Source: Mesostigma viride (lineage: Eukaryota; Streptophyta; Mesostigmatophyceae; Mesostigmatales; Mesostigmataceae). Taken from it: a stretch of 64,000 nt of DNA. Position 1 is the stretch's first letter. Every line of letters starts with the position of its first letter. This document shows positions 6,548 to 57,530 of the stretch, in pieces. Where the stretch lies: positions 936,234 to 1,000,233 of the forward strand of contig RPFO01000310.1 of the NCBI GenBank assembly GCA_009746045.1, in the 5' to 3' direction. The position numbers and the translations under genes are program-made. The notes below the pieces were generated by a model. It did not search any database, was not told the origin of the DNA, and saw nothing but the letters and a program-made list of their open reading frames with translations.

Positions 6548-6646
6548 GATGAGGCGTGCCCACTGCATTATGCATCAAGGAAGGGCCATCTGGATGTCAT
6601 CCAGCACCTCATAGCAAGTGGCGCAGACGTGAACGCCGTGGACAAG
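6548..6646 (+). CDS. ANK exon A2 (one ankyrin repeat)
   Basis: Ninety-nine bp, phase 0 at both ends, acceptor CTCTCAG before 6548 and donor GTCAGT at 6647. It codes a single 33-residue ANK repeat with the core CPLHYASRKGHLDVIQHL followed by IASGADVN. The usual TPLH signature is CPLH here, a tolerated change. It is the closest sister of A3; their upstream introns are essentially identical, but the exons differ by four amino acids. Confidence 0.85.
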
Positions 6647-7213: not shown

Positions 7214-7312
7214 GATGAGGCGTGCCCACTACATTACGCATCAAAGGAGGGCCGTCTGCATGTCATCCAGCACCTCATAGCAAGTGGCGCAGACGTGAAC
7301 GCCGTGGACAAG
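7214..7312 (+). CDS. ANK exon A3
   Basis: Ninety-nine bp, phase 0, acceptor CTCTCAG and donor GTCAGT at 7313. One ANK repeat, core CPLHYASKEGRLHVIQHL. Compared with A2 there are six substitutions, all between codons 6 and 16. Four are amino-acid changes (R to K, K to E, H to R, D to H) clustered around the turn between the two helices. Confidence 0.85.
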
Positions 7313-7914: not shown

Positions 7915-8013
7915 TCTGGGGGGTGCCCACTGCATCATGCATCAAGGAACGGCCGTCTGGATGTCGTCCGGCACCTCATCGCAAGTGGCGCGGATGTCGA
8001 CGAAGTGGATGAG
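7915..8013 (+). CDS. ANK exon A4
   Basis: Ninety-nine bp, phase 0, acceptor CTCTCAG and donor GTCAGT at 8014. ANK core CPLHHASRNGRLDVVRHL, ending GADVDEVDE. The acceptor-proximal intron (TTGGCTCTTTTTCCTCAT onward) is shared with A1-A3 and A6. Confidence 0.85.
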
Positions 8014-8670: not shown

Positions 8671-8769
8671 TACGGGCGTACCCCACTGCATGAGGCATCA
8701 AGAAACGGCCATCTGCCTGTCGTCCAGCACCTCGTCGCAAGTGGCGCAGATGTCAACCACGCGGATGAG
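8671..8769 (+). CDS. ANK exon A5
   Basis: Ninety-nine bp, phase 0, acceptor GCATCCAG and donor GTCAGT at 8770. ANK core YGRTPLHEASRNGHLPVV, a canonical TPLH repeat. Its upstream block (GATGCTGACATGTC through GGCTGCTGCATCCAG) belongs to the other unit type, used by A8, A9 and locus B. Here it is embedded between two units of the CTCTCAG type, so unit types are intermixed. Confidence 0.85.
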
Positions 8770-9502: not shown

Positions 9503-9601
9503 GATAGTGGGTGCCCACTGCATCATGCATCAGAGGAAGGCCATCTGGGCGTCGTCCAGCACCTCATCGCAAGTGGCGCGGATGTCGACAAAGTGGATGA
9601 G
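9503..9601 (+). CDS. ANK exon A6
   Basis: Ninety-nine bp, phase 0, acceptor CTCTCAG and donor GTCAGT at 9602. ANK core GCPLHHASEEGHLGVVQHL, ending VDKVDE. No in-frame stop. Flanked by CTCTCAG-type intron. Confidence 0.85.
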
Positions 9602-10025: not shown

Positions 10026-10128
10026 ATTGTAGTTGGCGTTCACGTCTGCGCCACTTGCGATGAGATGCTGGACGATATCCAGACGGCCGTCCCTTGATGC
10101 ATACATAATGCAGTGGGCCCCCCTCATC
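10026..10128 (-). pseudogene. Inverted, frameshifted ANK exon (A7)
   Basis: Read on the minus strand, this is an ANK exon with the CTCTCAG acceptor (10129-10135). A 4-base duplication within CATTATG(TATG)CATCAAGG makes it 103 bp and shifts the frame, and the donor position reads AATGGCAGT instead of AAGGTCAGT. The inverted tract extends from about 9985 to 10310 and includes the upstream unit intron in reverse. As the rest of the locus is plus-strand, this exon cannot contribute to locus A. Confidence 0.75.
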
Positions 10129-10941: not shown

Positions 10942-11040
10942 TTTGGTCAGACCCCACTGCATGAGGCATCGAGGAACGGCCATCTGGATGTCGTCCAGCA
11001 TCTCATCGCCAGCGGCGCGTATGTGGACGCCATGAACAAT
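10942..11040 (+). CDS. ANK exon A8
   Basis: Ninety-nine bp, phase 0, acceptor GCCTCCAG and donor GTCAGT at 11041. ANK core TPLHEASRNGHLDVVQHL, followed by IASGAYVDAMNN. The upstream block and the downstream GTCAGTGATGACTCCATGCAGTGGGCA are closely matched in locus B exons B2 and B5. Confidence 0.85.
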
Positions 11041-11862: not shown

Positions 11863-11961
11863 AATGGGAGTACCCCGCTGCATTTGGCGTCAGCTGGTGG
11901 CCATGGGGATGTTGTTGAGCATCTCATCGCAAACGGCGCGGATGCTGACGCCAAGGACAAG
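11863..11961 (+). CDS. ANK exon A9
   Basis: Ninety-nine bp, phase 0, acceptor GCATCCAG and donor GTCAGA at 11962. ANK core NGSTPLHLASAGGHGDVV, then EHLIANGADADAKDK. The upstream 80 bp (ATTGGGTTGTCACGGGATTTGTGTTGCTGCTGC) is the common pre-acceptor block. Confidence 0.85.
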
Positions 11962-13235: not shown

Positions 13236-13334
13236 TATGGGGGTACCTCGCTGCACGTGGCGTCAGCTGGTGGCCATGCGGATGTCGTCCAGCATCTCCT
13301 CACAATCGGCGCGGATGTGAACGCCGCAGACAAG
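13236..13334 (+). CDS. ANK exon A10
   Basis: Ninety-nine bp, phase 0, acceptor CACACAG and donor GTCAGT at 13335. ANK core YGGTSLHVASAGGHADVV, then QHLLTIGADVNAADK (TPLH reads TSLH). The acceptor context GTATGGCCGCACACAG is shared with A17, marking these two as a sub-family. Confidence 0.85.
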
Positions 13335-14311: not shown

Positions 14312-14410
14312 GATAAGGAAACCCCGCTACTTGGTGCGTCGAAGGGTGGCCACCTGGATATCGTCCGGCACCTCATCGCCAGCGGCGCAGATGTGAACTC
14401 CGAGGCCCAG
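14312..14410 (+). CDS. ANK exon A11
   Basis: Ninety-nine bp, phase 0, acceptor AAAATCAG and donor GTCAGA at 14411. ANK core TPLLGASKGGHLDIVRHL, then IASGADVNSEAQ. The TPLH histidine is leucine, as also in A19 (TLLL), so the H-bonding capping histidine is lost in this repeat. Confidence 0.8.
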
Positions 14411-15085: not shown

Positions 15086-15184
15086 GATGGGAGTACTGCA
15101 CTGCATCTTGCCTCATCGACCGGCCATCTGGATGTCATTGAGGAACTGGTTGCAAGTGGCGCACACGTGAATGCCAAGGGCAAG
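15086..15184 (+). CDS. ANK exon A12
   Basis: Ninety-nine bp, phase 0, acceptor CATTCAG and donor GTCAGT at 15185. ANK core DGSTALHLASSTGHLDVI, then EELVASGAHVNAKGK. No in-frame stop. Confidence 0.85.
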
Positions 15185-15738: not shown

Positions 15739-15837
15739 GCTGGAGAAACCCCGCTGCATCTCGCGTCCAGCAGCGGCCATCTGGATGTCGTGCAACATCT
15801 CATCGCAATCGGCGCAGATGTGAATGCCGAGAATGGC
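15739..15837 (+). CDS. ANK exon A14
   Basis: Ninety-nine bp, phase 0, acceptor AGCTCAG and a consensus GTAAGT donor at 15838. ANK core AGETPLHLASSSGHLDVV, then QHLIAIGADVNAENG. Closest sister is A22 at 28098, including several hundred bases of flank on each side. Confidence 0.85.
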
Positions 15838-18784: not shown

Positions 18785-18883
18785 ACTGGGATCACCCCAC
18801 TGGACAAGGCGTCACGGGATGGCCACCTGCATGTCGTCCAGCATCTCATTGCCTGCGGCGCGGATGTGAATGCCAAGGGCCCG
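18785..18883 (+). CDS. ANK exon A16
   Basis: Ninety-nine bp, phase 0, acceptor CGTCCAG and donor GTCAGT at 18884. ANK core TGITPLDKASRDGHLHVV, then QHLIACGADVNAKGP. The TPLH histidine is Asp. No in-frame stop. Confidence 0.85.
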
Positions 18884-23104: not shown

Positions 23105-23203
23105 TATGGGGATACCTCGCTGCATTTGGCGTCCTTGAATGGGCGTCTGCACGTTGTCCAGCATCTCATTGCAAGCGGCGCGGATGTGAACGCCGAGCAC
23201 ACA
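23105..23203 (+). CDS. ANK exon A17
   Basis: Ninety-nine bp, phase 0, acceptor CACACAG and donor GTGAGT at 23204. ANK core YGDTSLHLASLNGRLHVV, then QHLIASGADVNAEHT. The acceptor context GTGTGGCTGTGGCCGCACACAG is shared with A10. Confidence 0.85.
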
Positions 23204-24160: not shown

Positions 24161-24259
24161 GGTCGAGGTACTCCACTGCATTATGCATCATCCTGTGGTC
24201 ATCGGGATGTCTTGTGGCATCTACTCCACATGGGCTCAGATGTGAACGCCAATAATGAG
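24161..24259 (+). CDS. ANK exon A18
   Basis: Ninety-nine bp, phase 0, donor GTAAGT at 24260. The acceptor is GCATCAAG, an AG with A instead of C at -3, so slightly weaker. ANK core RGTPLHYASSCGHRDVLWHL, then LHMGSDVNANNE. It is the most divergent of the intact exons in its second helix. Confidence 0.8.
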
Positions 24260-25770: not shown

Positions 25771-25869
25771 GGTGAGGAGACCCTGCTGCTTGGTGTGTCT
25801 AGCAGTGACCATCTGGATGTCATCCAGCATCTCATCGCAAGCGGCGCGGATGTGAACGCCAAGAATGAT
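25771..25869 (+). CDS. ANK exon A19
   Basis: Ninety-nine bp, phase 0, acceptor GCATGCAG and donor GTCAGT at 25870. ANK core GEETLLLGVSSSDHLDVI, then QHLIASGADVNAKND. The first helix signature is degenerate (TLLLGVS for TPLHxAS), while the second half matches consensus. It may be a weakly folded repeat. Confidence 0.75.
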
Positions 25870-26933: not shown

Positions 26934-27032
26934 TATGGGAATACCCCATTGCACTTTGCGTCGTTGAGCGGCCACTTTGATGTCGTCCAGGACCTGGTTG
27001 CAAGCGGCGCAGAAGTAAACGCCAAGGGCAAG
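26934..27032 (+). CDS. ANK exon A20
   Basis: Ninety-nine bp, phase 0, acceptor CTGGCAG and donor GTTAGT at 27033. ANK core YGNTPLHFASLSGHFDVV, then QDLVASGAEVNAKGK. Open throughout. Confidence 0.85.
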
Positions 27033-28097: not shown

Positions 28098-28196
28098 GAT
28101 GGAGAAACCCCGCTGCATCTTGCATCAATGCGCGGCCATCTGGATGTCGTCCGGCATCTCCTCACAAACGGTGCGGACCTGAAGACCGAGAATGAC
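28098..28196 (+). CDS. ANK exon A22
   Basis: Ninety-nine bp, phase 0, acceptor AACTCAG and consensus donor GTAAGT at 28197. ANK core DGETPLHLASMRGHLDVV, then RHLLTNGADLKTEND. It is the last intact ANK exon before the effector exon and the sister of A14. Confidence 0.85.
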
Positions 28197-30314
28197 GTAA
28201 GTTTCTGGCTGGATAGTTGCTGTTTCTAAAGCCCGGGAGCTGTATTCAGTGGTCATGTAGCCATTTGCACAAACAGACCTTCGTCATGAGGGAATCGACA
28301 GCAGACATATCCAGGCAGGGTCTCAACTTGGATGCGCATGTGACTACTTTGCCTTCCTCAGATTCAGCACTTGAACAGATGTGCATGGGGGACTTCTCCG
28401 GGCCAAATGAAGACACTAAGCCCGGAAAGAACACGGGTTGAATGATAGCGGGGTGATCATTGTAGCAGCGATGAAGATGACCTTTTTCATCAACTACTTG
28501 GTAGTGCTGGAGTGGCATGTGTTTAGAGGAGCAGTATGTTGACTATATCATCTGTCCATGGAAAAGGTTACCACTGCCGCCTAAGTCTGTCGATGTTGTG
28601 ACCTACTTCCTTGTGATTCGGCTATTCTGTCAAAATGAAGTACCTCCTTATAAACACCGCATTATCATCGTGGGCGGGCCTTACAAATGTGGAAGGCGAA
28701 ATAGCAGGCATAGGCAGAGCACGGATGACGGGTGTTGCTGTCTCAAGCAAGTAATTCTAAGCCATATGATCAGGGCCATGTAGTTAGGGGCACGTGATCA
28801 GGGGGCATGTGACCAGGGGCCATGGCAACGTGGCCACGTGATCAGGGGCCATGCATCAGGGGCCACGTGGTCAGGTGTCATGGAGTTCATGAGTGCTGCA
28901 TCATTCTCAGTCAGTTCATCATTGCAGCGCTTGTGCTCTTGGCCTCTGTCAAATCATGCCATGATGTTTACGTGTTTTGTGGTTGTGCCACTGTGTTGTC
29001 ACGAAATTTTAGTGGCTTTTGCATCCAGTTAAGTTGCATCCAGTTAAGTTTACCTTTAAACACCCCCATTTTGCACTCCCACTTGGGACTTCCAAGCCAA
29101 CCCACAGTGCGTCGGCCGAGATCGGCCGTATATCCCGCGTGTATGGCCACTTCCACCACAAAGTAGGCTGAAATGGCCTAATTCCGCGGAAGTTGGCAGA
29201 AGTGGCCTCAGATCCCTCCTGCCAACTTCCACTGAAATCGCCGTACATTTTGCACCCTCGCCCGGCGCCGCCCACAAGGCATTAAGCTCAGTTCAGTTCA
29301 TCTTCCCGTGTTGATACTAAGGACTTGAGAAGTTACCGCATGTTTTTGGCCTGCTCAGTATGGACCAGCTGGTGGCGCGCCTGTACACTCACGTGCCACG
29401 CCAGACCAACCCCCCTCGGCGTCGTTGGAAATTGGCATTTATCCCACCTACAGCCAGGCTCCCACATCGTGATTCGACCAATTTGCCGAGGTGCCGTACG
29501 ATTTCCACCTACTTATGGAACTTGCAGGGCATAAACGCACCAACTGTGAACAAATTCCAGCTGCCGTGCAAGGATTCCCTGGAATGTCCGCAGTGACCAA
29601 ATCTGCGTGGTGGATTGCACTGACTGCCATTGACACTAGAAAGTCGGGGGGAATCACTTAAAATTAGCACAACAACACCCCGGAATACACAGCTAGAGCG
29701 AAAACTCTGTTAATGAAGTTTGCGGTTGTTTGGATCCATGTTTTCCAGAGGTTGGTATGCTGACTGGCTAGGTTTTCCAAAGCTCTGGGTAGATTGAATT
29801 CCGTGTTTCGCACATGAAATACCTCTGACGGACTTTGCACGTTTGTGGTGCTTAATTTGTACCATGATTTGGTGTTGTTTTCAAATTGCGATCCAAACAT
29901 GACTCTTGCACACTTATTAACTAACTGTATACTACTCTACAGCCAAACATGCATCAGTAGCAAATTTGCTGTGCAGAATTGTGTTACGATATCGCAGTAC
30001 CTTGGCTTAGCCAAACAATGTTGCCTTACACCAGTGGGCACTCTTTCGTGCCAGTTACCGCTACTACGCTTTTCAGAATATGTGAAGTGCGCATCAGATG
30101 TCTTATATATAGCCCACCCATTGATCGTTGAGGTGCACCCAGATTTGGCTGGGAAAGCTGAAAGGCCAAGCATTGCTGCTTTATGACTGGACTATTTCTG
30201 CCCTATTGTGTCCATAACTAGCGGTAATTGGAAAGATCCCGACCACCCACCTGCAGTGCCTGACCCGCACGTGAACCTGTTACTCTGGTTTGCTTTGATC
30301 ATGATTCACCACAG
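28197..30314 (+). other. Last intron of locus A
   Basis: The part at 28290-28510 is duplicated from 15930-16150. At 28980-29033 the common pre-acceptor block appears again, ending TTTGCATCCAG, but no ANK exon follows; instead a 15-base motif GCATCCAGTTAAGTT is doubled and then unrelated sequence begins. A perfect 12-bp inverted repeat (29188-29199 with 29219-29230, 19-base loop) lies in that sequence. The rest up to 30314 has no recognised gene. The intron ends in ATTCACCACAG. Confidence 0.55.
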
Positions 30315-33300
30315 GAAGGGAAAACACCACTGGATCTCGCTGAGGAAAACGACAAAGTCGAGGTTGCACAGTCCTTGCGTGAGGCCGAGGGGGACGTTTT
30401 CACAGAGATTGACTGGCCCACCCACCAGCTGACTCCTCAACCTGGCTTCCTCGCCAGCCTGGAGGGTATGGTGCCAGGCATACAGGAAACCTGGACACTT
30501 GCGCAGACCGCCCACCGCATGGGGGTGATGGTGGAGGGCAGCGCCCTGGATGTGGCGAGACTGGGTGAAGAGCTCAGGCAAGAGGATCAGCGCAACAAGG
30601 AGCAGCTGACCCAGGCGCAGGCTCAAGAAGAGGCCATGCACCGCAAGCTGGCCCACCTTCGCCGGAACATCACGGACGTGGCTGCGGCAAGGGAGCGGGA
30701 TGAGGCGGTGCAGGCATATGCAAGTAGGCTCCAGACCCTGCATGAGACTTTGGAGAAGAAGGCAGGCCTGTCGGAGCAGCGACACAAGCAGCAGCTGAAG
30801 CTAAGGGAAGTCGTGGGTTTGTTTGACATCAGCCAAGAGACGTTGCCTGCTAACCATGCGGGGAAAGGGCCTGAGCCAGACATGCAGGCCAGCGGCCGGC
30901 TGGCACTGGCGCAGCTGAGGGGGGTGGTAAAGGACTGCAATGATGAGCTGATGCCTGCAGCGGTGGCTACACAGAAAGCCATGGAGCATTTGCAGGCGTG
31001 CTTGGAGAAACAGCAAAGCATCGCAGCGAAATTGCGGGGTCGGCTGAATGCTGCCGTCCAATCAGGGCAGCGGTTTGCAGCCTCGGTGCTTTCCCAGCTG
31101 AAGGGTGAGACTCCCGAGGAGGATGGCAGACATGCGCGCAAGATGTCAGAGATAACGTCCTTGCGAGAGAAGGAAATGCACAGGATGATGGCCCTGCGAG
31201 AGAGCATCCCAGGGACCCTGTCTCGCCTGGCCGCTGCTCAGCAGGAGAGTAAGCTGATCCAGCGACAGCTCAGAAACACGCGCCTGGACATCTTGGACGC
31301 GGTGGATGATGGGCACACGGGGCAGCTGCAGCAACTCAAGGAGAAGGAGAGGGTGCTGCTGGAGCAAATTTCCAAGTTGGCTGCGGAACAAGCCACGCTG
31401 TCCGAGTCGTTGGCGGATGCCAAGCCGCAGCAGTGGTACCCGGACTTGCTGGCGCAGGAGGAGCGCATCAAGGAGTTGCACAAGTTCTTACCTGCAGGCG
31501 CCAGCAGGGACCTTATGGACAACGAGTGGAACCTCTCCAAGTTCCGCGATAGCCCTGGGACCCCCTTGGTGTCGGCAAGGGGGGCGTGGCGGGTGAGGTT
31601 GGTGGAGGACTGGAACGGGAAGAAGTGGGTGGTCAAGGAGATGGGGCCGGGGCCAGAGTTGCGGCGGGAGGTCAACCGGCTGAAGGCGTTGCAGCACCCC
31701 CTGGTGATCCCCCTGGAGCGGGTGTTCATCGATAACAACGTGGCCTACCTGCAGATGCCCTACTACAAGAATGGGAACCTTCGTGGCTGGGTTGACAGCA
31801 TCGTGGGCGCCCAGAAGGGGGCAGCGTGCCTGACCACCCAGCAGGGTGCGCAGGTCTGGAGCACGATGAAGCAGGTCTTCCAGGCGGTGGCCTTCCTCCA
31901 CCGCAAGGGCATCGTGCACCGCGACCTCAAGCCGGAGAATGTGCTGCTGCAGGATGACGGCCAGATCGCGCTGTGTGACTTTGGGGTCAGCCACGATGTG
32001 CTGGCCCACCTGCAGACGACCAAGGCAACGCTGCCCATGGGGGGACATACCGCGTGCTATGCCGCCCCGGAGGTGCTTGCGGGGAAGGGCGTGTCCGCAA
32101 GCAACCCGTACACCGAGGACCTGTGGTCCCTGGGGGTGATGCTGCTGGAGCTGGCAGGGACCCGGCTGTCTTGGAACCCGACCACCTCCCGCCTGGAGGG
32201 TGAGCAGGGTCGCCCCATCAACACAGCCGACTTGCTGGTGGGCAAGTCCAAGTGGCACCGCGATCTGATCACCCTGGCTGACTCCCTGCTTCAGAAGGAC
32301 CCTGACGCCCGGCCCAGCGCTGACGCGGTCCTTGCAAGCGAGTTCTTCCAGCAAGACCCGTCCGCCTCCCAGGTGCAGCAGAATCGCCACCTGCTGCTGC
32401 TGACCAGCCACCTGGCAAAGCTGCGGCAGAGCCCTCAGGGTGGTGGGCGGCCCAAGACCCATGTGATGAGGTTGGACGTGCGCGAGGGGCCCGGCATGGT
32501 TGCCCCGGTGCTGGCGCTGTTTGCTCGGGAGGCCGGCGTCAAGCCCGAGGAGACCGTGGTCGGCGAACATGCGGGCGTGCGCATCCCTCTCTCCGAGGTG
32601 CTCCACAACTTCTTTGAGGCGGTGGTGCTGCCCGCTGCCGGCCTGTTTGAGCAGGGCAAGGGGGATGGCGAGGATGCAAGTGGGTCTGGAGCGGCCTCCC
32701 AGGTGCGCGAGGGGGTGGCCTTCCTTCCCAGCGTTTGCCAGGCGAGGGGTGCCAAGGCCACGAAGAGCCACCGGCAGCGGCTGCGCACGGTGGGCAAGAT
32801 CTTGGCCAAGGCGGTGCTGCAGTGCATCCATGTGCCGGTGCAGTTTTGCAGCGCGCTCTTCTGTGCTCTGGTGGCCAAGGACGACCTCACGCAGTACAGC
32901 ACGGCCGACTGCCTGGAGATGCTGGCGGAGTTTGACCCCACCGATGCGCGCCGCATGCGCATCACGCTGGCCATGAAGCACGGGGACGGCGAATCGGGGA
33001 TCACCCTGGGGGCCCTCATGGGCGATGCCAGCGCGGACGAGACCCTCATGACGGATGCCAACAAGGACCTGCTCGTGCGCAAGGCGATCCACCACCGCCT
33101 GGTCTTGACACGGGCGGCCGAGCTCGCACAGGTTCGTGCCGGCTTCCTGTGCCTCGACTGGGAGCCCCTGCTGGGTGTGCTGTCGCCGTTCGACCTGATG
33201 ACCCTCTTCTTTGGGACGGACTACCTGGATGTCAGCCGCGTCAGCCAGGCATTCCAGCTGGATGTGGCCAGCTGGGAAGGCAGGGAGGCGCAGGGGCAGC

Positions 33301-33839
33301 AGGCATGGGAGTGGCTGCAGCGCTTCGTGCACGAGGCCTCGGAGACGTCCCTGCGCCTGTTTAGTATCTGCGCGCTGGGCGGCGCCAAGTCCTGGTGGTC
33401 AGGCATGTGTGCCGTGAAGAGGCTGACCTCTGGCAGCAACAGGGGCCTGCCGGAGTTCTCCCGTGAGTCGGGCTCCCTGTACCTCCCTCTCCCCGGAAAC
33501 GACGCCTGCCCCTCGTACGAGGCGTTCAGCGCGCGCATGTTTGCAGCGCTCAAGGTGCACGGGGAGTACGGCCAGCGCACCGAGGCGCAGCGTGCCCAGA
33601 AGATGGGCATGGAGGAGATGCAGGGTGTGGTGCGGGCGATGGCGGGGCAGGTGAGGGCGGGGGGCTGGTACCGCTGCCCCAACAGCCACCTGTACTGCAT
33701 CACCGAGTGTGGCGGTGCCATGCAGGAGAGCACGTGTCCCACCTGCGGGAAAGGCATTGGCGGGAGCCAGCACCGGTTGAGGGGTGACAATGCGAATGCT
33801 CTGGACGTGGATGGGGCGCAGAGACCTGCGTGGAACTGA
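30315..33839 (+). CDS. Effector exon A: ANK cap, coiled coil, kinase, HECT-like, RZ zinc finger
   Basis: Terminal exon of 1174 codons plus TGA, entered in phase 0 after the acceptor CACCACAG; there is no ATG at its start because it is internal coding. Residues (exon numbering) 1-25 are an ANK C-cap (EGKTPLDLAEEND). About 80-390 are charged, Glu/Gln/Arg-rich coiled coil. About 418-678 are a protein kinase with VVK Lys441, Glu452, HRDLKPEN Asp537, DFG Asp555, APE Glu586, DLW Asp602 and Arg666, so catalysis is expected; the glycine loop is atypical (RGAWRV). About 717-1082 fit a HECT E3 fold (LDVREGPGMVAPVLALF; LRTVGKILAKAVLQ; LMTDANKDLL; a C-lobe with PSYEAF), but the usual TCFN cysteine motif is not present. 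About 1116-1154 are an RZ finger (GGWYRCPNSH, ECGG, CPTCGKGIGG; ligands Cys1121, His1125, Cys1132, Cys1141, Cys1144). Probably a cytosolic phosphorylation-ubiquitin signalling protein. The function is inferred. Confidence 0.9.
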   Translation, partial: EGKTPLDLAEENDKVEVAQSLREAEGDVFTEIDWPTHQLTPQPGFLASLEGMVPGIQETWTLAQTAHRMGVMVEGSALDVARLGEELRQEDQRNKEQLTQAQAQEEAMHRKLAHLRRNITDVAAARERDEAVQAYASRLQTLHETLEKKAGLSEQRHKQQLKLREVVGLFDISQETLPANHAGKGPEPDMQASGRLALAQLRGVVKDCNDELMPAAVATQKAMEHLQACLEKQQSIAAKLRGRLNAAVQSGQRFAASVLSQLKGETPEEDGRHARKMSEITSLREKEMHRMMALRESIPGTLSRLAAAQQESKLIQRQLRNTRLDILDAVDDGHTGQLQQLKEKERVLLEQISKLAAEQATLSESLADAKPQQWYPDLLAQEERIKELHKFLPAGASRDLMDNEWNLSKFRDSPGTPLVSARGAWRVRLVEDWNGKKWVVKEMGPGPELRREVNRLKALQHPLVIPLERVFIDNNVAYLQMPYYKNGNLRGWVDSIVGAQKGAACLTTQQGAQVWSTMKQVFQAVAFLHRKGIVHRDLKPENVLLQDDGQIALCDFGVSHDVLAHLQTTKATLPMGGHTACYAAPEVLAGKGVSASNPYTEDLWSLGVMLLELAGTRLSWNPTTSRLEGEQGRPINTADLLVGKSKWHRDLITLADSLLQKDPDARPSADAVLASEFFQQDPSASQVQQNRHLLLLTSHLAKLRQSPQGGGRPKTHVMRLDVREGPGMVAPVLALFAREAGVKPEETVVGEHAGVRIPLSEVLHNFFEAVVLPAAGLFEQGKGDGEDASGSGAASQVREGVAFLPSVCQARGAKATKSHRQRLRTVGKILAKAVLQCIHVPVQFCSALFCALVAKDDLTQYSTADCLEMLAEFDPTDARRMRITLAMKHGDGESGITLGALMGDASADETLMTDANKDLLVRKAIHHRLVLTRAAELAQVRAGFLCLDWEPLLGVLSPFDLMTLFFGTDYLDVSRVSQAFQLDVASWEGREAQGQQAWEWLQRFVHEASETSLRLFSICALGGAKSWWSGMCAVKRLTSGSNRGLPEFSRESGSLYLPLPGNDACPSYEAFSARMFAALKVHGEYGQRTEAQRAQKMGMEEMQGVVRAMAGQVRAGGWYRCPNSHLYCITECGGAMQESTCPTCGKGIGGSQHRLRGDNANALDVDGAQRPAWN

Positions 33840-40818: not shown

Positions 40819-41550
40819 CTGAGGGCAATCATGGACCCGCAAATGGGGTGCACGTGTGTCTCATCGCTCGCTTGGCCAGCATGCCCAGCTCCTGCGGATG
40901 CTGAGGGCAAGCATGGACCAGCGCATGGGGTGCACGTGTGTCTCATCGCTTGCTGTTCCTGTGGATGCTGAGGGCAAGCATGGACCAGCGCATGCATGGG
41001 GTGCACGTGTGTCGCATCGCTTGCTTGGCCAACATGCCCAGCTCCTGCGGATGCTGAGGGCAAGCATGGACCAGCAAATGGGGTGCACGTGTGTCTCATC
41101 GCTTGCTTGGCCAGCATGCTGGGTCCTGTGGATGCTGAGGGCAAGCATGGACCAGCGCATGCATGGGGTGCACGTGTGTCGCATCGCTTGCTTGGCCCGC
41201 ATGCCTGGTTCCTGTGGATGCTGAGGGCAAGCATGGACCAGCGCATGGGGTGCACGTGTGTCTCATCGCTTGCTTGGCCAGCATGCCTGGTTCCTGTGGA
41301 TGCTGAGGGCAATCATGGACCAGCGCATGGGGTGCACGTGTGTCTCATCGCTTGCTTGGCCAGCATGCGTGGTTCCTGTGGATGCTGAGGGCAATCATGG
41401 ACCAGCGCATGGGGTGCACGTGTGTCTCATCGCTTGCTTGGCCAGCATGCCTGGTTCCTGTGGATGCTGAGGGCAAGCATGGACCAGCGCATGGGGTGCA
41501 CATGTGTCTCATCGCTTGCTTTGCCAGCATGCCTGGTTCCTGTGGATGCT
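40819..41550 (+). repeat. 82-bp minisatellite grown from ANK-unit intron
   Basis: About nine copies of GCTGAGGGCAAGCATGGACC, then AGCGCATGGGGTGCACGTGTG and TCTCATCGCTTGCTTGGCC, ending TTCCTGTGGAT. The last copies are exactly 82 bp apart (41219, 41301, 41383); earlier ones vary by small indels. The final copy runs straight into GGATGCTGACATACGTGC, the normal pre-acceptor block of exon B1, so the array appears to be an amplification of that intron segment. Open frames in it are repeat artefacts. Confidence 0.85.
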
Positions 41551-41621
41551 GACATACGTGCACGCATGCTTTGGGCTGTGTGATTGGAACGTGTTGGGAT
41601 TCCTGTGGCTGCTGCGTTCAG

Positions 41622-41717
41622 GCCGACACCCCACTGCACGAAGCATCAGAGGAAGGCCGTCTGGATGTCGTCCGGCAACTCCTCACAAGTGGTGCAGACA
41701 TAGAGGCCAAGGATGAG
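41622..41717 (+). CDS. ANK exon B1 (32-residue variant)
   Basis: Ninety-six bp, phase 0, acceptor CGTTCAG and donor GTCAGT at 41718. ANK core ADTPLHEASEEGRLDVVRQL, then LTSGADIEAKDE. It is one codon shorter at the 5' end than the 99-bp norm. It lies directly after the 82-bp minisatellite. Confidence 0.8.
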
Positions 41718-42844: not shown

Positions 42845-42943
42845 GATGGGTACACCCCGCTGCATTGCGCATCAACGAAAGGCCATCTGGAGGTTGTCCG
42901 GCATCTCATCACAAGCGGCGCGGATGTGGACGCCAAGGACAAT
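42845..42943 (+). CDS. ANK exon B2
   Basis: Ninety-nine bp, phase 0, acceptor CCCTCAG and donor GTCAGT at 42944. ANK core DGYTPLHCASTKGHLEVV, then RHLITSGADVDAKDN. The upstream intron is of the A15 type while the downstream intron (GTCAGTGATGACTGCATGCAGTGGGCA, then an 81-bp block) is of the A8 type, so the unit is a mosaic. Confidence 0.85.
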
Positions 42944-43427: not shown

Positions 43428-43969
43428 TATGGGAGTACCCCGGTACATGAGGCGCCAAGTGAAAGGGTTGGCGATAGACCGGTCTACCCTAAAAAAAAGC
43501 ACATTTTGGCGAATTAATTAATTTTTGGCAAAGGGAGTAATGGATTTCGACCCCTGCCGCCCAAATATGGACCATTCCTGGCATGTAAAGGTCAGATTCT
43601 GAGTGCCCTCATCGAGATTTGTCAATTGCGCTACTTAAACTTTAGATTGGACCCCCCAATGTCCTACTTGGCCTGTCTTGACTTCAGCCAATTTGATGCT
43701 AAGGAGCCAGCATACAGCATACATTTTCACCTCCCTTGTAGCCGCACTGTCACCCAACCGGAAATGGACTTTCCGGTATCTAAGGTATGATGCAGGATCC
43801 TCTCACGGAGATCTGTCGATTGCGCTACTCAAAATAAAATTTGGGGTTGGTTTTGAGACCCTGTCTACGATAGTAGATCGGTCTACCGCCAACACTTTCA
43901 AGTGGTGGCCATCTGGATGTCGTCCAGCATCTCATCGCCAGCGGCGCAGACGTGAACGCCAAGGACGAT
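43428..43969 (+). pseudogene. ANK exon B3 split by transposon insertion
   Basis: Left part 43428-43461 (34 bp, YGSTPVHEAPS) and right part 43905-43969 (65 bp, GHLDVVQHLIASGADVN) add up to exactly 99 bp once the inserted element and one copy of its target duplication are set aside. The acceptor CCTCCAG is intact; the donor at 43970 reads GTCCGT instead of GTCAGT. With the insert the exon is broken, though its phase-0 neighbours could still be spliced across it. Confidence 0.85.
43462..43898. mobile_element. MITE-like element in ANK exon B3
   Basis: 437 bp with 26-bp terminal inverted repeats matching at 23 positions (left AAAGGGTTGGCGATAGACCG; the right end ends TAGATCGGTCTACCGCCAAC followed by ACTTT), flanked by a 6-bp direct repeat CAAGTG at 43456-43461 and 43899-43904. 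There is no transposase frame. Two internal segments resemble each other in direct orientation (around GATTTGTCAATTGCGCTAC and GATCTGTCGATTGCGCTAC). The size, TIRs and TSD fit a non-autonomous DNA transposon; the superfamily is not assigned. Confidence 0.85.
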
Positions 43970-44485
43970 GTCCGTTTCTGGGTTCATGCCAGTGAGCAAG
44001 GGGGATGTGCTGTTTCTTAATGGTCGCGTAGCCCTTGAGCAACGGAATGACCGTGTGTGGTGAAGAAGATAAGGACGTGTTCAGGATGTCTGGTTTGTTT
44101 CCAGCAAGTATGCCCTTGTAATTGGAGTTTTAAATTACCTTGTTGAGGTAAATATGTGTCATGCTTCCATCATACATCCACCCATGTCTGCTCTGTCCCA
44201 GATCAGGGTATCTCAGTCAGATCTCGGCAGGCTGTTAGTAGTAGTTGCGGGCACGGCATCGCCTGGGATGGCAGGCATGTCTTAGCTTCTTGCACCGACC
44301 AGGAGGTCAGCTTGTCAAGAGTGTGGCAGTGGCAATGATAAGGTATACTGGCGGTGTTGATTGCCGTGGGATCCCTTTGGTTGCAGAACATGACGGGGTC
44401 CTGCAGATGCTGACACGTCCATGTGTTGTGAGGCTGTTGTCATGCGACCTGGTTGTCACGGGACTTGTGTGGCTGCTGTCTCCAG
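43970..44485 (+). other. ANK-unit intron between B3 and B4
   Basis: Carries an 81-bp block (about 44030-44110), a GTATCTCAGTCAGATCTCGG block and the CTGCAGATGCTGACACGTCCATGTGTTGTG pre-acceptor block. No additional exon. Confidence 0.65.
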
Positions 44486-44584
44486 GTTGGGAGTACCCCT
44501 CTGCATTATGCAACAGAAGAAGAGCATCTGGATGTCGTCCAGCATCTCATCACCAGCGGCGCTGGCGTGAACGTCAAGGACGAT
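44486..44584 (+). CDS. ANK exon B4
   Basis: Ninety-nine bp, phase 0, acceptor TCTCCAG and donor GTCAGT at 44585. ANK core VGSTPLHYATEEEHLDVV, then QHLITSGAGVNVKDD. The conserved Gly before His-Leu is Glu here. Confidence 0.85.
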
Positions 44585-45093: not shown

Positions 45094-45192
45094 TATGGGA
45101 GTACCCCACTGCATGGTGCGTCCAGCAACGGCAAGCTGGATGTCGTCCAGCACCTCATCGCCAGTGGCGCAGACATGAACGCCAAGGGCGAT
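45094..45192 (+). CDS. ANK exon B5
   Basis: Ninety-nine bp, phase 0, acceptor GCCTCCAG and donor GTCAGT at 45193. ANK core YGSTPLHGASSNGKLDVV, then QHLIASGADMNAKGD. Open throughout. Confidence 0.85.
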
Positions 45193-50802: not shown

Positions 50803-50901
50803 CAAGAGGATACTCCACTGCATTATGCATCAAGGTGGGGGCATCTGGATGTTGTCCAGCATCTTATCGCAATCGGCGCGGATGTGAATGCCAAGAACAA
50901 G
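50803..50901 (+). CDS. ANK exon B6
   Basis: Ninety-nine bp, phase 0, acceptor GGATCCAG and consensus donor GTAAGT at 50902. ANK core QEDTPLHYASRWGHLDVV, then QHLIAIGADVNAKNK. It is the last full ANK repeat before the cap exon of locus B. Confidence 0.85.
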
Positions 50902-52105: not shown

Positions 52106-52279
52106 AGGGGGGAAACGCCCCTGGATTCGGCCGAGAAATATAAGGAAACGGACGTAGCACAGATCTTGCGTCATGCTGCGGCCAAGCCAACAGTGGCCCA
52201 ACCACGAGTGCAACAGCCACCTGCCGCACCAAACAAGCCGCAGGTGCAACACCGGACTGACCCAGCTGAGGGTAAAGCT
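52106..52279 (+). CDS. Cap exon B: last ANK repeat plus Pro-rich linker
   Basis: 174 bp, phase 0, after acceptor GATTGCAG and before a GTGAGT donor at 52280. Residues 1-22 form the ANK C-cap (RGETPLDSAEKYKETDVAQI), equivalent to EGKTPLDLAEEND at the start of effector exon A. Residues 25-58 are a Pro/Gln/Ala-rich linker (KPTVAQPRVQQPPAAP). In locus A the cap is fused directly to the effector exon and has no such linker, so the two loci differ by an intron and a linker at this joint. The next exon is expected to be 54075. Confidence 0.8.
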
Positions 52280-54074: not shown

Positions 54075-57000
54075 GCTATGAAGGATGCTTTTGCAGAGAT
54101 AGACTGGCCTGCCTGCCAGTTGAATCCTCAACCTGGCCTGCTCTCCAGCCTGGAGGGTAAAGTAATGATCATGCAAGGAACCTGGGCAGTTGCGCAGCTG
54201 GCCCATCGCATGGGGGTGGTGGTGAAGGGCAGCGCCTTGAATGCGGCGAGACTGGGCAAACAGCTCAAGCAAGAAGGTGAGCGCAGCAGGGAGCAGCTGG
54301 CCCAGGCCCAGGCACAAGAGGAAGTCATGCACCGCAAGCTGGCCCACCTTCGCCGGAACAGCACGGACGTGGCTGCGGCTAGGGACCGGGATGACGCGGT
54401 GCAGGCATATGCGAGCAGCCTTCAGGCTCTGCGTGAGACTTTGGAGAAGAAGGCAGGCCTGTCGGAGCAGCGACACAAGCAGCAGCTGACGCTTAAGGAA
54501 ACCATGGGTTTGTTTGACAACAGCCAAGAGACACTGCATGCTAGCGATGCGGGGAAAGGGCCTGAGCTAGACATGGAGGCAACCGGCCAGCTGGCGCTTG
54601 AGCAGCTGAGGGAGGTGGTGAAGGACTGCAATGATGAGCTGATGCCTGCAGCGGTGACTACACAGAAAGCAATGGAGCATTTGCAGGCCTGCTTGGAGAA
54701 ACAGGAAAGCATCGCCACGAAACTGCGGGGTCGGCTGGATGCTGCTGTCCAATCAGGGCAGCGGTTTGCAGCCTTGGTGCTTTCCCAGCTGAAGGCTGAG
54801 ACTCCCGAGGAGGATGGCAGACATGCGCGCAAGATGTCAGAGATAACGTCCTTGCGAGAGAAGGAAGTGCACAGGATGATGGCCCTGCGAGAGAGCATCC
54901 CAGGGACCCTGTCTCGCCTGGCGGCTGCCCAGCAGGAGAGTAGGCAGATCCAGCGACAGCTGAGGGATACTCGCAACCAAATAATAGACGCGGAGGAGGA
55001 TGGGCGCACAGGGCAGCTGCAGCAGATCAAGGAGAAGGAGAGGGCGCTGCTGGAGCAAGCCTCCCAGTTGGCCGCGGAGCAAGCCACACTGTCTGAGTCG
55101 TTGGCGGATGCCAAGCTGCAGCAGTGGTACCCGGACTTGCTGGCGCAGGAGGAGCGCATCCAGGAGCTGCACAAATTCTTACCTGCAGTGACCACCAGGG
55201 ACCTCATGGACAATGAGTGGAACCTGTCCAAGTTCCGCGATATTTCTGGAAAGCCGCTGATTTCAGGAAGTGTTGTATGGCGGGTGAGGCTGATGGAGGA
55301 CTGGCATGGGAGGCAGTGGGTGGTGAAAGCAATGGGGCCGGGGCCGGAGTTGCGGCGGGAGGTCAACCGGCTGAAGGCGTTGCAGCACCCCCTAGTGATC
55401 CCCCTGGAGCGGGTGTTCATTGACAACAACGTGGCCTACCTGCAGATGCCTTACTACAAGAACGGGAACCTGCGTGGCTGGGTTGACAGCATCGTGGGCG
55501 CCCAGAAGGGGGCAGCGAGCCTGACCACCCAGCAGGGTGCGCAGATCTGGGCCACGATGAAGCAGGTCTTCCAGGCGGTGGCCTTCCTCCACCGCAAGGG
55601 CATTGTGCACCGCGACCTCAAGCCGGAGAATGTGCTGCTGCAGGATGACGGCCAGATCGCGCTGTGTGACTTTGGGGTCAGCCACGATGTGCTGGCACAC
55701 CTGCAGACGACCAAGGCAACGCTGCCCGTGGGGGGATACACCGCGTGCTATGCCGCCCCGGAGGTGCTTGCGGGGAAGGGCGTGTCCGCAAGCAACCCGT
55801 ACGCCGAGGACCTGTGGTCCCTGGGGGTGATGCTGCTGGAGCTGGCAGGGACCCGGCTGTCTTGGAACCCGACGACCTCCCGCCTGGAGGATGAGCAGGG
55901 TCGCCCCATCAACACGGCCGACTTGCTGGTGGGCAAATCCAAGTGGCACCGCGATCTGATCACCCTGGCTGACTCCCTGCTTCAGAAGGACCCTGACGCG
56001 CGGCCCAGTGCTGACGTGGTCCTTGCCTGCGAGTTCTTCCAGCAAGACCCGTCCGCCAGCCAGGTGCAGCAGAACCGCCACCTACTGCTGCTGACCAGCC
56101 ACCTGGCGAAGCTGCGGCAGAGTCCTCAGGGTGGCGGGCGGCCCAAGACCCACGTGATGAGGTTGGACGTGCGCGAGGGGCCCGGCATGGTTGCTCCGGT
56201 GCTGGCGCTGTTTGCTCGGGAGGCCGGCGTCAAGCCCGAGGAGACCGTGGTCGGCGAACATGCGGGCGTGCGCATCCCTCTCTCCGAGGTGCTGCACAAC
56301 TTCTTTGAGGCGGTAGTGCTGCCCGCTGCCGGCCTGTTTGAGCAGGGCAAGGGGGATGGCGAGGATGCCAGTGGGTCTGGAGCGGCCTCCCAGGTGCGCG
56401 AAGGGGTGGCCTTCCTTCCCACCGTTTGCCAGGCGAGGGGCGCCAAGGCCACAAAGACCCACCGGCAGCGACTGCGCACTGTGGGCAAGATCTTGGCCAA
56501 GGCGGTGCTGCAGTGCATCCACGTGCCGGTGCAGTTTGGCAGCGCGCTCTTCTGTGCGCTGGTGGCCAAGGACGACCTCACGCAGTACAGCACGGCCGAC
56601 TGCCTGGAGATGCTGGCGGAGTTTGACCCCACCGACGCGCGCCGCATGCGCGTCACGCTGGCCATGAAGCACGGGGACGGCGAATCGGGGATCACCCTGG
56701 GGGCCCTCATGGGCGATGCCGGCGCGGACGAGACCCTCATGACGGATGCCAACAAGGACCTGCTCGTGTGCAAGGCGATCCACCACCGCCTGGTCCTGAC
56801 GCGGGCGGCCGAGCTCACAGAGGTGCGCACCGGCTTCCTGTGCCTCGACTGGGAGCCCCTGCTGGGTGTGCTGTCGCCGTTTGACCTGATGACCCTTTTC
56901 TTTGGGACGGACTACCTGGACGTCAGCCGCGTCAGCCAGGCGTTCCAGCTGGACACGGCCAGCTGGGAGGGCAGGGAGGTGCATGGGCAGCAGGCGTGGG

Positions 57001-57530
57001 AGTGGCTGCAACGCTTCCTGCACGAAGCCTCGGAGACGTCCCTGCGCCTGTTCAGCATATGCGCGCTGGGCGGCGCCAAGTCCTGGTGGTCGGGCATGTG
57101 TGCCGTGAAGAGGCTGACCTCTGCCAGCAACGGGGGCCTGCCGGAGTTCTCCCGTGAGTCGGGCTCCCTGTACCTCCCTCTCCCCGGTAACGAGGGCTGC
57201 CCCTCGTACGAGGCGTTCAGCGCGCGCATGTTTGCGGCGCTCAAGGTGCACGGGGACTACGGCCAGCGCACCGAGGCGCAGCGTGCCCAGAAGATGGGCA
57301 TGGAGGAGATGCAGGGTGTGGTGCGGGCGATGGCGGGGCAGGTGAGGGCGGGGGGCTGGTACCGCTGCCCCAACGGCCACCTGTACTGCATCACCGAGTG
57401 TGGCGGTGCCATGCAGGAGAGCACGTGTCCCACCTGCGGGAAAGGCATTGGCGGGAGCCACCACCGGTTGAGGGGTGACAATGCGAATGCTCTGGACGTG
57501 GATGGGGCGCAGAGACCTGCATGGAACTGA
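54075..57530 (+). CDS. Effector exon B: coiled coil, kinase, HECT-like, RZ zinc finger
   Basis: 1151 codons plus TGA, phase 0 from the acceptor ACCATGCAG. An upstream ATG at 54048 is in frame, but it lies before the acceptor and is not needed. It aligns end to end with effector exon A from its EIDW motif without net indels. Exon numbering: coiled coil about 57-367; kinase about 395-655 with Lys418, Glu429, HRD Asp514, DFG Asp532, APE Glu563; HECT-like about 694-1059; RZ finger with Cys1098, His1102, Cys1109, Cys1118, Cys1121 (CPNGH, ECGG, CPTC). The HECT catalytic TCFN motif is missing here as well, while Cys1042 in the GCPSYE motif is shared. Most amino-acid differences from A lie in the coiled coil and in a 31-residue segment over the kinase glycine loop. 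All kinase catalytic residues are present. Confidence 0.9.
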   Translation, partial: AMKDAFAEIDWPACQLNPQPGLLSSLEGKVMIMQGTWAVAQLAHRMGVVVKGSALNAARLGKQLKQEGERSREQLAQAQAQEEVMHRKLAHLRRNSTDVAAARDRDDAVQAYASSLQALRETLEKKAGLSEQRHKQQLTLKETMGLFDNSQETLHASDAGKGPELDMEATGQLALEQLREVVKDCNDELMPAAVTTQKAMEHLQACLEKQESIATKLRGRLDAAVQSGQRFAALVLSQLKAETPEEDGRHARKMSEITSLREKEVHRMMALRESIPGTLSRLAAAQQESRQIQRQLRDTRNQIIDAEEDGRTGQLQQIKEKERALLEQASQLAAEQATLSESLADAKLQQWYPDLLAQEERIQELHKFLPAVTTRDLMDNEWNLSKFRDISGKPLISGSVVWRVRLMEDWHGRQWVVKAMGPGPELRREVNRLKALQHPLVIPLERVFIDNNVAYLQMPYYKNGNLRGWVDSIVGAQKGAASLTTQQGAQIWATMKQVFQAVAFLHRKGIVHRDLKPENVLLQDDGQIALCDFGVSHDVLAHLQTTKATLPVGGYTACYAAPEVLAGKGVSASNPYAEDLWSLGVMLLELAGTRLSWNPTTSRLEDEQGRPINTADLLVGKSKWHRDLITLADSLLQKDPDARPSADVVLACEFFQQDPSASQVQQNRHLLLLTSHLAKLRQSPQGGGRPKTHVMRLDVREGPGMVAPVLALFAREAGVKPEETVVGEHAGVRIPLSEVLHNFFEAVVLPAAGLFEQGKGDGEDASGSGAASQVREGVAFLPTVCQARGAKATKTHRQRLRTVGKILAKAVLQCIHVPVQFGSALFCALVAKDDLTQYSTADCLEMLAEFDPTDARRMRVTLAMKHGDGESGITLGALMGDAGADETLMTDANKDLLVCKAIHHRLVLTRAAELTEVRTGFLCLDWEPLLGVLSPFDLMTLFFGTDYLDVSRVSQAFQLDTASWEGREVHGQQAWEWLQRFLHEASETSLRLFSICALGGAKSWWSGMCAVKRLTSASNGGLPEFSRESGSLYLPLPGNEGCPSYEAFSARMFAALKVHGDYGQRTEAQRAQKMGMEEMQGVVRAMAGQVRAGGWYRCPNGHLYCITECGGAMQESTCPTCGKGIGGSHHRLRGDNANALDVDGAQRPAWN

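Follow-up and report, generated by a model that had tools for sequence, protein, structure and literature searches.

Diversifying ankyrin surfaces and a constrained kinase, HECT-like and RZ half in a tandem gene array of Mesostigma viride, a candidate receptor repertoire

In Mesostigma viride, an early-branching streptophyte alga, a tandem array of near-identical genes is under split selection: the ankyrin surface is diversifying, and the effector half, which carries a protein kinase, a HECT-like fold and an RZ zinc finger, is under purifying selection. The array resembles an undescribed repertoire of germline-encoded immune receptors, and we infer an immune role. On balance, sequence analysis mildly favors a design in which ankyrin recognition would be coupled to RZ-type ubiquitylation, with the HECT fold reduced to a scaffold. 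The window, i.e., the whole stretch of 64,000 nucleotides that was analyzed, includes the array genes referred to here as gene 1 and gene 2.

The ORF spanning the terminal exon of gene 1 extends from 30264 to 33839 (+), and the splice acceptor cacag places the start of the exon exactly at 30315. Protein positions refer to the 1,191-aa translation P0002, in which residue n begins at 30264+3(n-1). The features of the exon are as follows.

30315 to 33839, +: terminal exon of gene 1 with ankyrin cap, helical region, kinase, HECT-like region and RZ finger; stop codon at 33837-33839
30315 to 30386, +: half ankyrin repeat (C-cap) EGKTPLDLAEENDKVEVAQSLREA, residues 18-41; tblastn E 1e-3
30396 to 31538, +: helical-looking region, residues 45-425 (judged by eye); dN/dS 0.32
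31656 to 32348, +: protein kinase, Pfam residues 465-695; E 4.7e-39
32748 to 33362, +: HECT match, Pfam residues 829-1033; E 9e-8
33447 to 33509, +: HECT C-lobe stretch LPEFSRESGSLYLPLPGNDAC at the canonical catalytic-loop position; its last residue is C1082
33636 to 33794, +: RZ zinc finger, Pfam residues 1125-1177; E 1.2e-19, dN/dS 0.04
33675 to 33773, +: RZ active-site set, from an ungapped alignment with RNF213

The original prediction held that one open exon joins an ankyrin cap, a kinase, a HECT fold and an RZ finger, and this was borne out by Pfam and by structure comparison of the P0002 translation. Pfam detected the kinase, HECT and RZ families; only ankyrin was without a Pfam match in P0002 (none at E up to 1). 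The ankyrin part of the claim stands for the half-repeat cap, which is similar to cap exons that stand on their own in other array copies, but not for full repeats, which are separate upstream exons beyond 30315-33839. As to the coiled coil of that prediction, residues 45-425 look no more than helical by eye. Furthermore, Pfam detected no AAA family in P0002, P0001 or the five relatives scanned, no RING above the cut-off in P0002 or P0001 (a sub-threshold Sina_RING match in P0001 had E 0.3) and no helicase family above the cut-off in P0002. NACHT and NB-ARC were absent from the seven proteins and 10 other window ORFs scanned, a set that leaves out unrecognized upstream exons of the array genes.

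In the genome, 24 of the 41 matches were located on this contig, between 650 and 1312 kb and all on the + strand. Eighteen of these 24 were full length, and 17 of the 18 had no stop. Among 12 array copies examined for stops, 11 were open and one contained a stop; since dN/dS in those 11 copies was 0.04 to 0.32 depending on the domain, the exon is not a chance ORF. No kinase-HECT-RZ unit outside Mesostigma was present among the protein matches listed (the best 120 of 854 in one listing), and among these matches the receptor family is so far known from Mesostigma only. In line with the earlier claim that this combination of domains belongs to no described family, none that has it was found in the open-access literature among the matches listed. 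The front end of sister forms is USP7-like; it has lost the catalytic Cys in all three forms inspected and could act as an integrated decoy.

The ankyrin exons of the array genes encode a single repeat each and are mostly 99 nt long, in phase 0 and variable in number. Exact AG and GT at the edges were found in 50 of 66 full-length repeat matches. The other exons of the two window genes are as follows.

6548 to 6646, +: gene 1 ankyrin exon, 99 nt, between AG and GT
7214 to 7312, +: gene 1 ankyrin exon
7915 to 8013, +: gene 1 ankyrin exon
8671 to 8769, +: gene 1 ankyrin exon
9503 to 9601, +: gene 1 ankyrin exon
10942 to 11040, +: gene 1 ankyrin exon
11863 to 11961, +: gene 1 ankyrin exon
13236 to 13334, +: gene 1 ankyrin exon
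14312 to 14410, +: gene 1 ankyrin exon
15086 to 15184, +: gene 1 ankyrin exon
15739 to 15837, +: gene 1 ankyrin exon
18785 to 18883, +: gene 1 ankyrin exon
23105 to 23203, +: gene 1 ankyrin exon
24161 to 24259, +: gene 1 ankyrin exon
25771 to 25869, +: gene 1 ankyrin exon
26934 to 27032, +: gene 1 ankyrin exon
28098 to 28196, +: gene 1 ankyrin exon, final full repeat before the cap
41622 to 41717, +: gene 2 first ankyrin exon (beginning ADTPLHEASEEG), 96 nt, between CAG and GTCAGT
42845 to 42943, +: gene 2 ankyrin exon
44486 to 44584, +: gene 2 ankyrin exon
45094 to 45192, +: gene 2 ankyrin exon
50803 to 50901, +: gene 2 penultimate ankyrin exon
52106 to 52279, +: gene 2 cap and Pro-rich linker exon, phase 0; acceptor CAG and donor GTGAGT read by eye
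54075 to 57530, +: gene 2 kinase-HECT-RZ exon; acceptor CAG read by eye

The kinase-HECT-RZ exons of genes 2 and 1 share 90% identity across 1152 residues. This exon structure suggests that the terminal exon of gene 1 closes a longer gene with ankyrin exons upstream, and we infer a joined transcript. Alternatively, the ankyrin and kinase-HECT-RZ exons could be separate interleaved genes, with a constitutive signaling E3 of 1150 aa and neighboring ankyrin genes whose diversification has some other cause. Two database models fit such a separation: P0003, which is identical to window gene 2, and P0004, the Mesvir1 model of the neighboring array copy 838635 (100% over 459 residues), start with a Met where the terminal exon begins and carry no ankyrin. 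Moreover, the cap exon is apart from the terminal exon in six other copies read. However, the terminal exon of gene 1 itself encodes the ankyrin cap, in the same frame and uninterrupted by an intron, and elsewhere a phase-0 reading through cap, linker and terminal exon is possible, with CAG as the acceptor; the cap-linker donors in the six copies are GTGAGT (four of six), GTTAGT and GTGGGT. Copy 668129 has no ATG before the CAG and retains the acceptor. The ANK-kinase-HECT-RZ order, for which a search had been proposed, was found by Pfam within the single annotated proteins P0010 and P0011, two other Mesostigma proteins. Finally, each of 10 terminal exons examined is preceded by 3 to 20 ankyrin matches on the same strand. 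Separate genes are therefore improbable, and a single gene that ends in the kinase-HECT-RZ exon is the preferred reading.

The two halves of this gene differ in how they evolve. Over 11 array copies, dN/dS was 0.20 for HECT-N, 0.17 for HECT-C and 0.04 for RZ. In contrast, all 48 middle ankyrin exons were mutually distinct at positions 1, 3, 8, 11 and 12. In a set of positions chosen by DARPin numbering, 64 of 170 amino acid differences fell on 5 of 33 positions (expected, 25.8), and 3 of 20,000 random sets were as high; for the nine closest pairs, the set held 27 of 67 differences (33 of 20,000 random sets as high). In 19 non-overlapping pairs of middle exons (38 of the 48), the nonsynonymous rate at contact positions was 0.492, compared to a flanking-intron divergence of 0.121 (p 1.6e-44 in a binomial test that assumes independent sites), and the framework rate was 0.105. 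Thus, surface positions of middle repeats changed approximately 4 times faster than adjacent introns. Penultimate exons behaved similarly (three pairs; contact 0.269 versus intron 0.038, p 1.3e-6), but the excess was not significant in first-repeat exons (four pairs, p 0.056). Synonymous change was also higher at the contact codons of middle exons (pS 0.445 versus 0.225 in the framework), and therefore pN/pS there was only 1.1. Ankyrin recognition, as originally proposed, thus gains indirect support from diversifying change at surface positions.

In the kinase, all of the 12 array copies have K458 (just 5' of the Pfam match), D554 and D572, the VAIK Lys, HRD Asp and DFG Asp were present in 13 of 13 family members, and dN/dS was 0.21 (residues 430-700, 11 copies). 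A glycine-rich loop (GxGxxG) was not seen by eye, and the Pfam kinase match starts at profile position 44.

The RZ finger has the zinc ligands C1138, H1142, C1158 and C1161 (C-x3-H ... C-x2-C). By ungapped alignment with RNF213, C1149 was assigned as the nucleophile and H1170 as the base, corresponding to C4462 and H4483 in the published descriptions of mouse RNF213 (PMC11549300, PMC12075652). All six RNF213 RZ residues were retained with identical spacing, and the active-site set was complete in all 12 array copies and in all 13 family members. Furthermore, the columns of the nucleophile Cys and the base His were invariant across 23 aligned sequences, including helicase-domain RZ proteins. 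The RZ finger is a predicted ubiquitylating module with a full RNF213-type active site.

The HECT match scored 32.5 bits (cut-off, 23.9) and covers only profile positions 35-234 of 306; in seven of seven members scanned, HECT was above the cut-off and ended at position 205-234. A profile from eight family HECT regions had NEDD4 as its top PDB chain (E 2.2e-4). In the proposed structure comparison, with a predicted model of low confidence (pLDDT 48, pTM 0.33), the best 50 of 92 Foldseek matches were all HECT E3 structures (best E 1.4e-4). The catalytic Cys of HECT domains is located in a C-lobe loop, before L-x-L-P. By motif spacing, the Cys of the canonical catalytic loop LPEFSRESGSLYLP is absent: this place is occupied by E in 10, G in two and R in one of 13 members, and by E1068 in 12 of 12 array copies. 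Since the C-lobe profile alone matched neither PDB nor Pfam, this placement rests on HECT motif spacing and on the low-confidence model. An active HECT ligase, as originally suggested, is thus not supported: the Cys is missing from the canonical site of the C-lobe, and it is in the RZ finger that the full RNF213 active site is retained. The best reading is that the HECT fold would serve as a scaffold only.

The nucleophile could have shifted, either to a Cys three residues 3' of the canonical place, which 8 of the 13 members have and the window copies lack, or to C1082, a Cys in all 13. An unusual HECT E3, active via C1082 and with RZ as an accessory, is nevertheless unlikely, given that the canonical place is never Cys, that the Pfam match ends early in every member scanned, and that RZ is more constrained than HECT-C, with the RNF213 nucleophile and base kept.

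In the scaffold reading, the ankyrin repeats would jointly build a binding surface, as in designed ankyrin proteins, and the cap and linker would tie it to the helical-looking region, the kinase, the HECT-derived fold and the C-terminal RZ. When a non-self or pathogen protein binds to this surface, the C-terminal module would be released or clustered, and the kinase would set the active state. The HECT lobes would then dock E2~ubiquitin and hand ubiquitin to C1149, which, with H1170 as the base, may pass it on to the bound target or the target's surface. Tandem duplication, together with the shuffling of exons and diversifying selection, would renew recognition, while the effector half stays constant. 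Only tentatively do we extend this to a Mesostigma germline immune repertoire without an NLR core, in which ankyrin paratopes arise with exon shuffling and a pseudo-HECT gives E2~ubiquitin to RZ, so that an invader or its effector is ubiquitylated. It is rather doubtful that the same machine works in mating or self/non-self recognition, or in the handling of endosymbionts or food particles, instead of defense: non-self recognition is a topic of the cited text on hypervariable ankyrin repeats in Podospora NLRs (PMC4986451), but the RZ-finger E3 RNF213 is described as working in pathogen defense (PMC11549300, PMC12075652), which by analogy leans toward defense.

Among known systems, RNF213 and ZNFX1 share the RZ ligands, nucleophile Cys and base His, with spacing identical to RNF213. 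However, RNF213 has a dynein-like AAA core, which Pfam did not detect in the Mesostigma proteins scanned, and the Mesostigma RZ is preceded by a kinase and a HECT fold, with no AAA, RING or helicase above the cut-off in P0002. HACE1 and HECTD1 are ankyrin and HECT E3s with an active HECT Cys, and we know of no kinase or RZ in them. The Mesostigma proteins likewise combine ankyrin repeats and a HECT fold (HACE1 was among the best 50 of 92 Foldseek matches) but lack the canonical Cys and add the kinase and RZ. Their variable positions fall largely on the sites that, by DARPin numbering, are randomized in DARPins. DARPins have a constant framework and randomized surface positions (PMC8683736), whereas the Mesostigma ankyrins are natural, germline encoded and apparently fused to signaling enzymes. 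Similarly, Podospora NLRs are described with near-identical ANK, TPR or WD repeats, variable in number and diversifying at few surface positions (PMC4986451). The Mesostigma ankyrin repeats share these properties, but the proteins scanned have no NACHT/NB-ARC match, a C-terminal effector, one repeat per exon and a kinase and RZ output. Arabidopsis KEEP ON GOING (KEG) also combines kinase, ankyrin repeats and an E3-type domain in a single protein, with RING in place of HECT/RZ and additional HERC2-like repeats, according to the cited text (PMC5385374), whose description of KEG includes no hypervariable array.

If true, the proposed working would reveal a receptor repertoire in a streptophyte alga outside the NLR and receptor-kinase classes, in which hypervariable ankyrin surfaces are wired to an RNF213-class ubiquitin writer. 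It would place RZ catalysis in a second evolutionary setting and show a HECT fold surviving as a scaffold after loss of its nucleophile. The array would also provide natural ankyrin binders in the form of a compact library.

The kinase, HECT and RZ parts of gene 1 lie in one open exon. In Pfam, its translation P0002 (1191 aa, counting 17 residues 5' of the acceptor) matched protein kinase at E 4.7e-39, RZ zinc finger at E 1.2e-19 and, over profile positions 35-234 of 306, HECT at E 9e-8 (32.5 bits vs. a cut-off of 23.9). The original prediction had placed all these domains in a single exon that opens with an ankyrin cap. This holds for kinase and RZ, and for HECT above the cut-off over that part of the profile; the ankyrin portion amounts to a half repeat at the head of the exon, directly 3' of a cacag acceptor. 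The features of the window are as follows.

10035-10109 (-): lone ankyrin-like stretch within gene 1
30264-33839 (+): gene 1 ORF
30315-33839 (+): gene 1 terminal exon (kinase-HECT-RZ)
33684-33686: codon of a Ser (S1141, CPNSH) adjoining the zinc-ligand His, in gene 1 alone; Gly in 11 of 12 array copies
40955-41552: minisatellite (82-base unit, 7.2 copies), directly 5' of gene 2's first ankyrin exon
43428-43995: gene 2's third ankyrin exon, split into a 5' piece at 43428 and a 3' piece at 43898; the ends of the ~440 bases in between look like inverted repeats with mismatches, resembling the insertion of a small transposon
54075-57530: gene 2 terminal exon, 90% identical to gene 1 over 1152 residues

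Searching the 440-Mb assembly with P0002, with 39 of 466 candidates scored and match counts therefore lower bounds, yielded at least 41 matches. At least 24 of them are on the window's contig, C1107, at 650-1312 kb, every one on the + strand; 18 copies there span residue 43 or earlier to residue 1191, and 17 of these are stop-free. Outside this array, at least 4 matches showed 72-82% identity and at least 13 showed 42-48%. The window corresponds to C1107:936234-1000233. The Mesvir1 EukProt model P0004 is 100% identical over 459 residues to C1107 copy 838635, and we accordingly assign the DNA to Mesostigma viride (Mesostigmatophyceae, Streptophyta). Among the inspected DNA blocks of >700 bases, gene 2 matched other array units, introns included, at 86.6-93.8% identity in blocks of >2 kb and down to 72.5% in shorter ones.

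In three protein searches (~8000 candidates scored in each out of 5.8 billion sequences; one list comprised the best 120 of 854), the kinase-HECT-RZ unit occurred solely in Mesostigma among the matches listed. The other matches listed had a kinase or RZ Pfam domain without HECT, and less than half of the query was covered.

Proteins with the kinase-HECT-RZ unit and their front ends
P0003: from the window itself
P0004-P0011, P0123-P0125: Mesvir1 members
P0125: part of the kinase-HECT junction absent
P0012, P0127: models break off within the HECT region
P0010, P0011: ankyrin front end
P0006, P0008, P0009: USP7-like UCH and/or USP7 C-terminal domains in front (Pfam scan)
P0007, P0123, P0124, P0125, P0127: USP7-like UCH and/or USP7 C-terminal domains (precomputed Pfam annotation)

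At the positions which we take to be the catalytic Cys and His of USP7, the aligned P0127 has Gln for Cys and a gap opposite His; by eye, the Cys was not found at that place in P0123 and P0125. Its loss in these three inspected proteins suggests a pseudo-protease front end. Residues 174-232 at the N-terminus of P0010 matched clathrin heavy-chain propeller and linker above the cut-off, reflecting either a fusion or a mis-annotation.

Ankyrin exons were surveyed in 264 kb (200 kb of array plus the window; E < 0.05), giving 67 matches on the + strand and 1 on the - strand. AG and GT stand exactly at both edges in 50 of the 66 full 33-residue + matches, each a 99-nt exon with a single repeat. The ten terminal exons examined are preceded by 3, 5, 6, 6, 6, 5, 5, 5, 20 and 6 matches, the set of 20 being that of gene 1; 5 more stand within 10 kb 5' of the window, and all of these may form one gene. 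Six other copies read have a cap-and-linker exon after the ankyrin exons, with the donor GTGAGT (4), GTTAGT (1) or GTGGGT (1), and the 7 terminal exons read start after CAG with GCTATGAAG or a near variant; phase 0 is a possible reading for both exons. In gene 1, the cap is joined to the terminal exon without an intron.

Nei-Gojobori dN/dS in 11 of 12 array copies examined (one stop-bearing copy excluded) was 0.32 for the helical-looking region, 0.21 for the kinase, 0.20 and 0.17 for the HECT N- and C-lobes, and 0.04 for RZ. Selection is split between this conserved effector half and the varying ankyrin exons. All 48 middle ankyrin exons (19 from gene 1, 29 from other genes) are mutually distinct at the five contact sites. 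In the 29, entropy was 2.5-3.0 bits at these sites (positions 1, 3, 8, 11 and 12), 2.25 at position 32, 2.6 at position 33 and <0.6 at 19 of the 26 other positions.

In 19 non-overlapping middle-exon pairs (38 of 48 exons, paired by intron similarity), contact pN was 0.492 (117/237.8 sites) vs. a flanking-intron divergence of 0.121 (binomial p = 1.6e-44, with sites treated as independent and the five sites chosen from the same data). Framework pN was 0.105. Within contact codons pN/pS is only ~1.1, because pS is also raised there (0.445 vs. 0.225 in the framework); apart from selection, these hypervariable codons may also be shaped by local mutability or by exon-segment exchange. Penultimate exons showed the same excess (3 pairs; 0.269 vs. 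0.038, p = 1.3e-6), and in first exons it was not significant (4 pairs; 0.162 vs. 0.081, p = 0.056). For a site set taken from DARPin numbering (1, 3, 11, 12 and 31), 64 of 170 differences were found vs. 25.8 expected (3 of 20,000 random sets equally high), and 27 of 67 in the 9 closest pairs (33 of 20,000).

In the open-access literature, no paper on the family was found among the matches listed (titles and abstract openings), in agreement with the earlier claim that no described family joins all these domains; ankyrin, HECT, ubiquitin and immun do not occur in the main text of the Mesostigma genome paper (PMC6947507).

A diverse ankyrin surface on a constant enzymatic tail is the layout of a recognition receptor, and the mode of evolution is shared with ankyrin-bearing fungal NLRs (PMC4986451). 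Ankyrin binding would lead to kinase-dependent activation and to RZ-catalyzed ubiquitylation, with the HECT lobes as a putative E2 dock. Two observations make us very slightly less confident in the receptor reading: 8 of 13 members have a Cys three residues past the canonical HECT Cys site, and the cap-exon donor varies. We still lean modestly toward ankyrin recognition being coupled to kinase/RZ output, through a predicted joined transcript, binding and a switch, in what may be an immune role.
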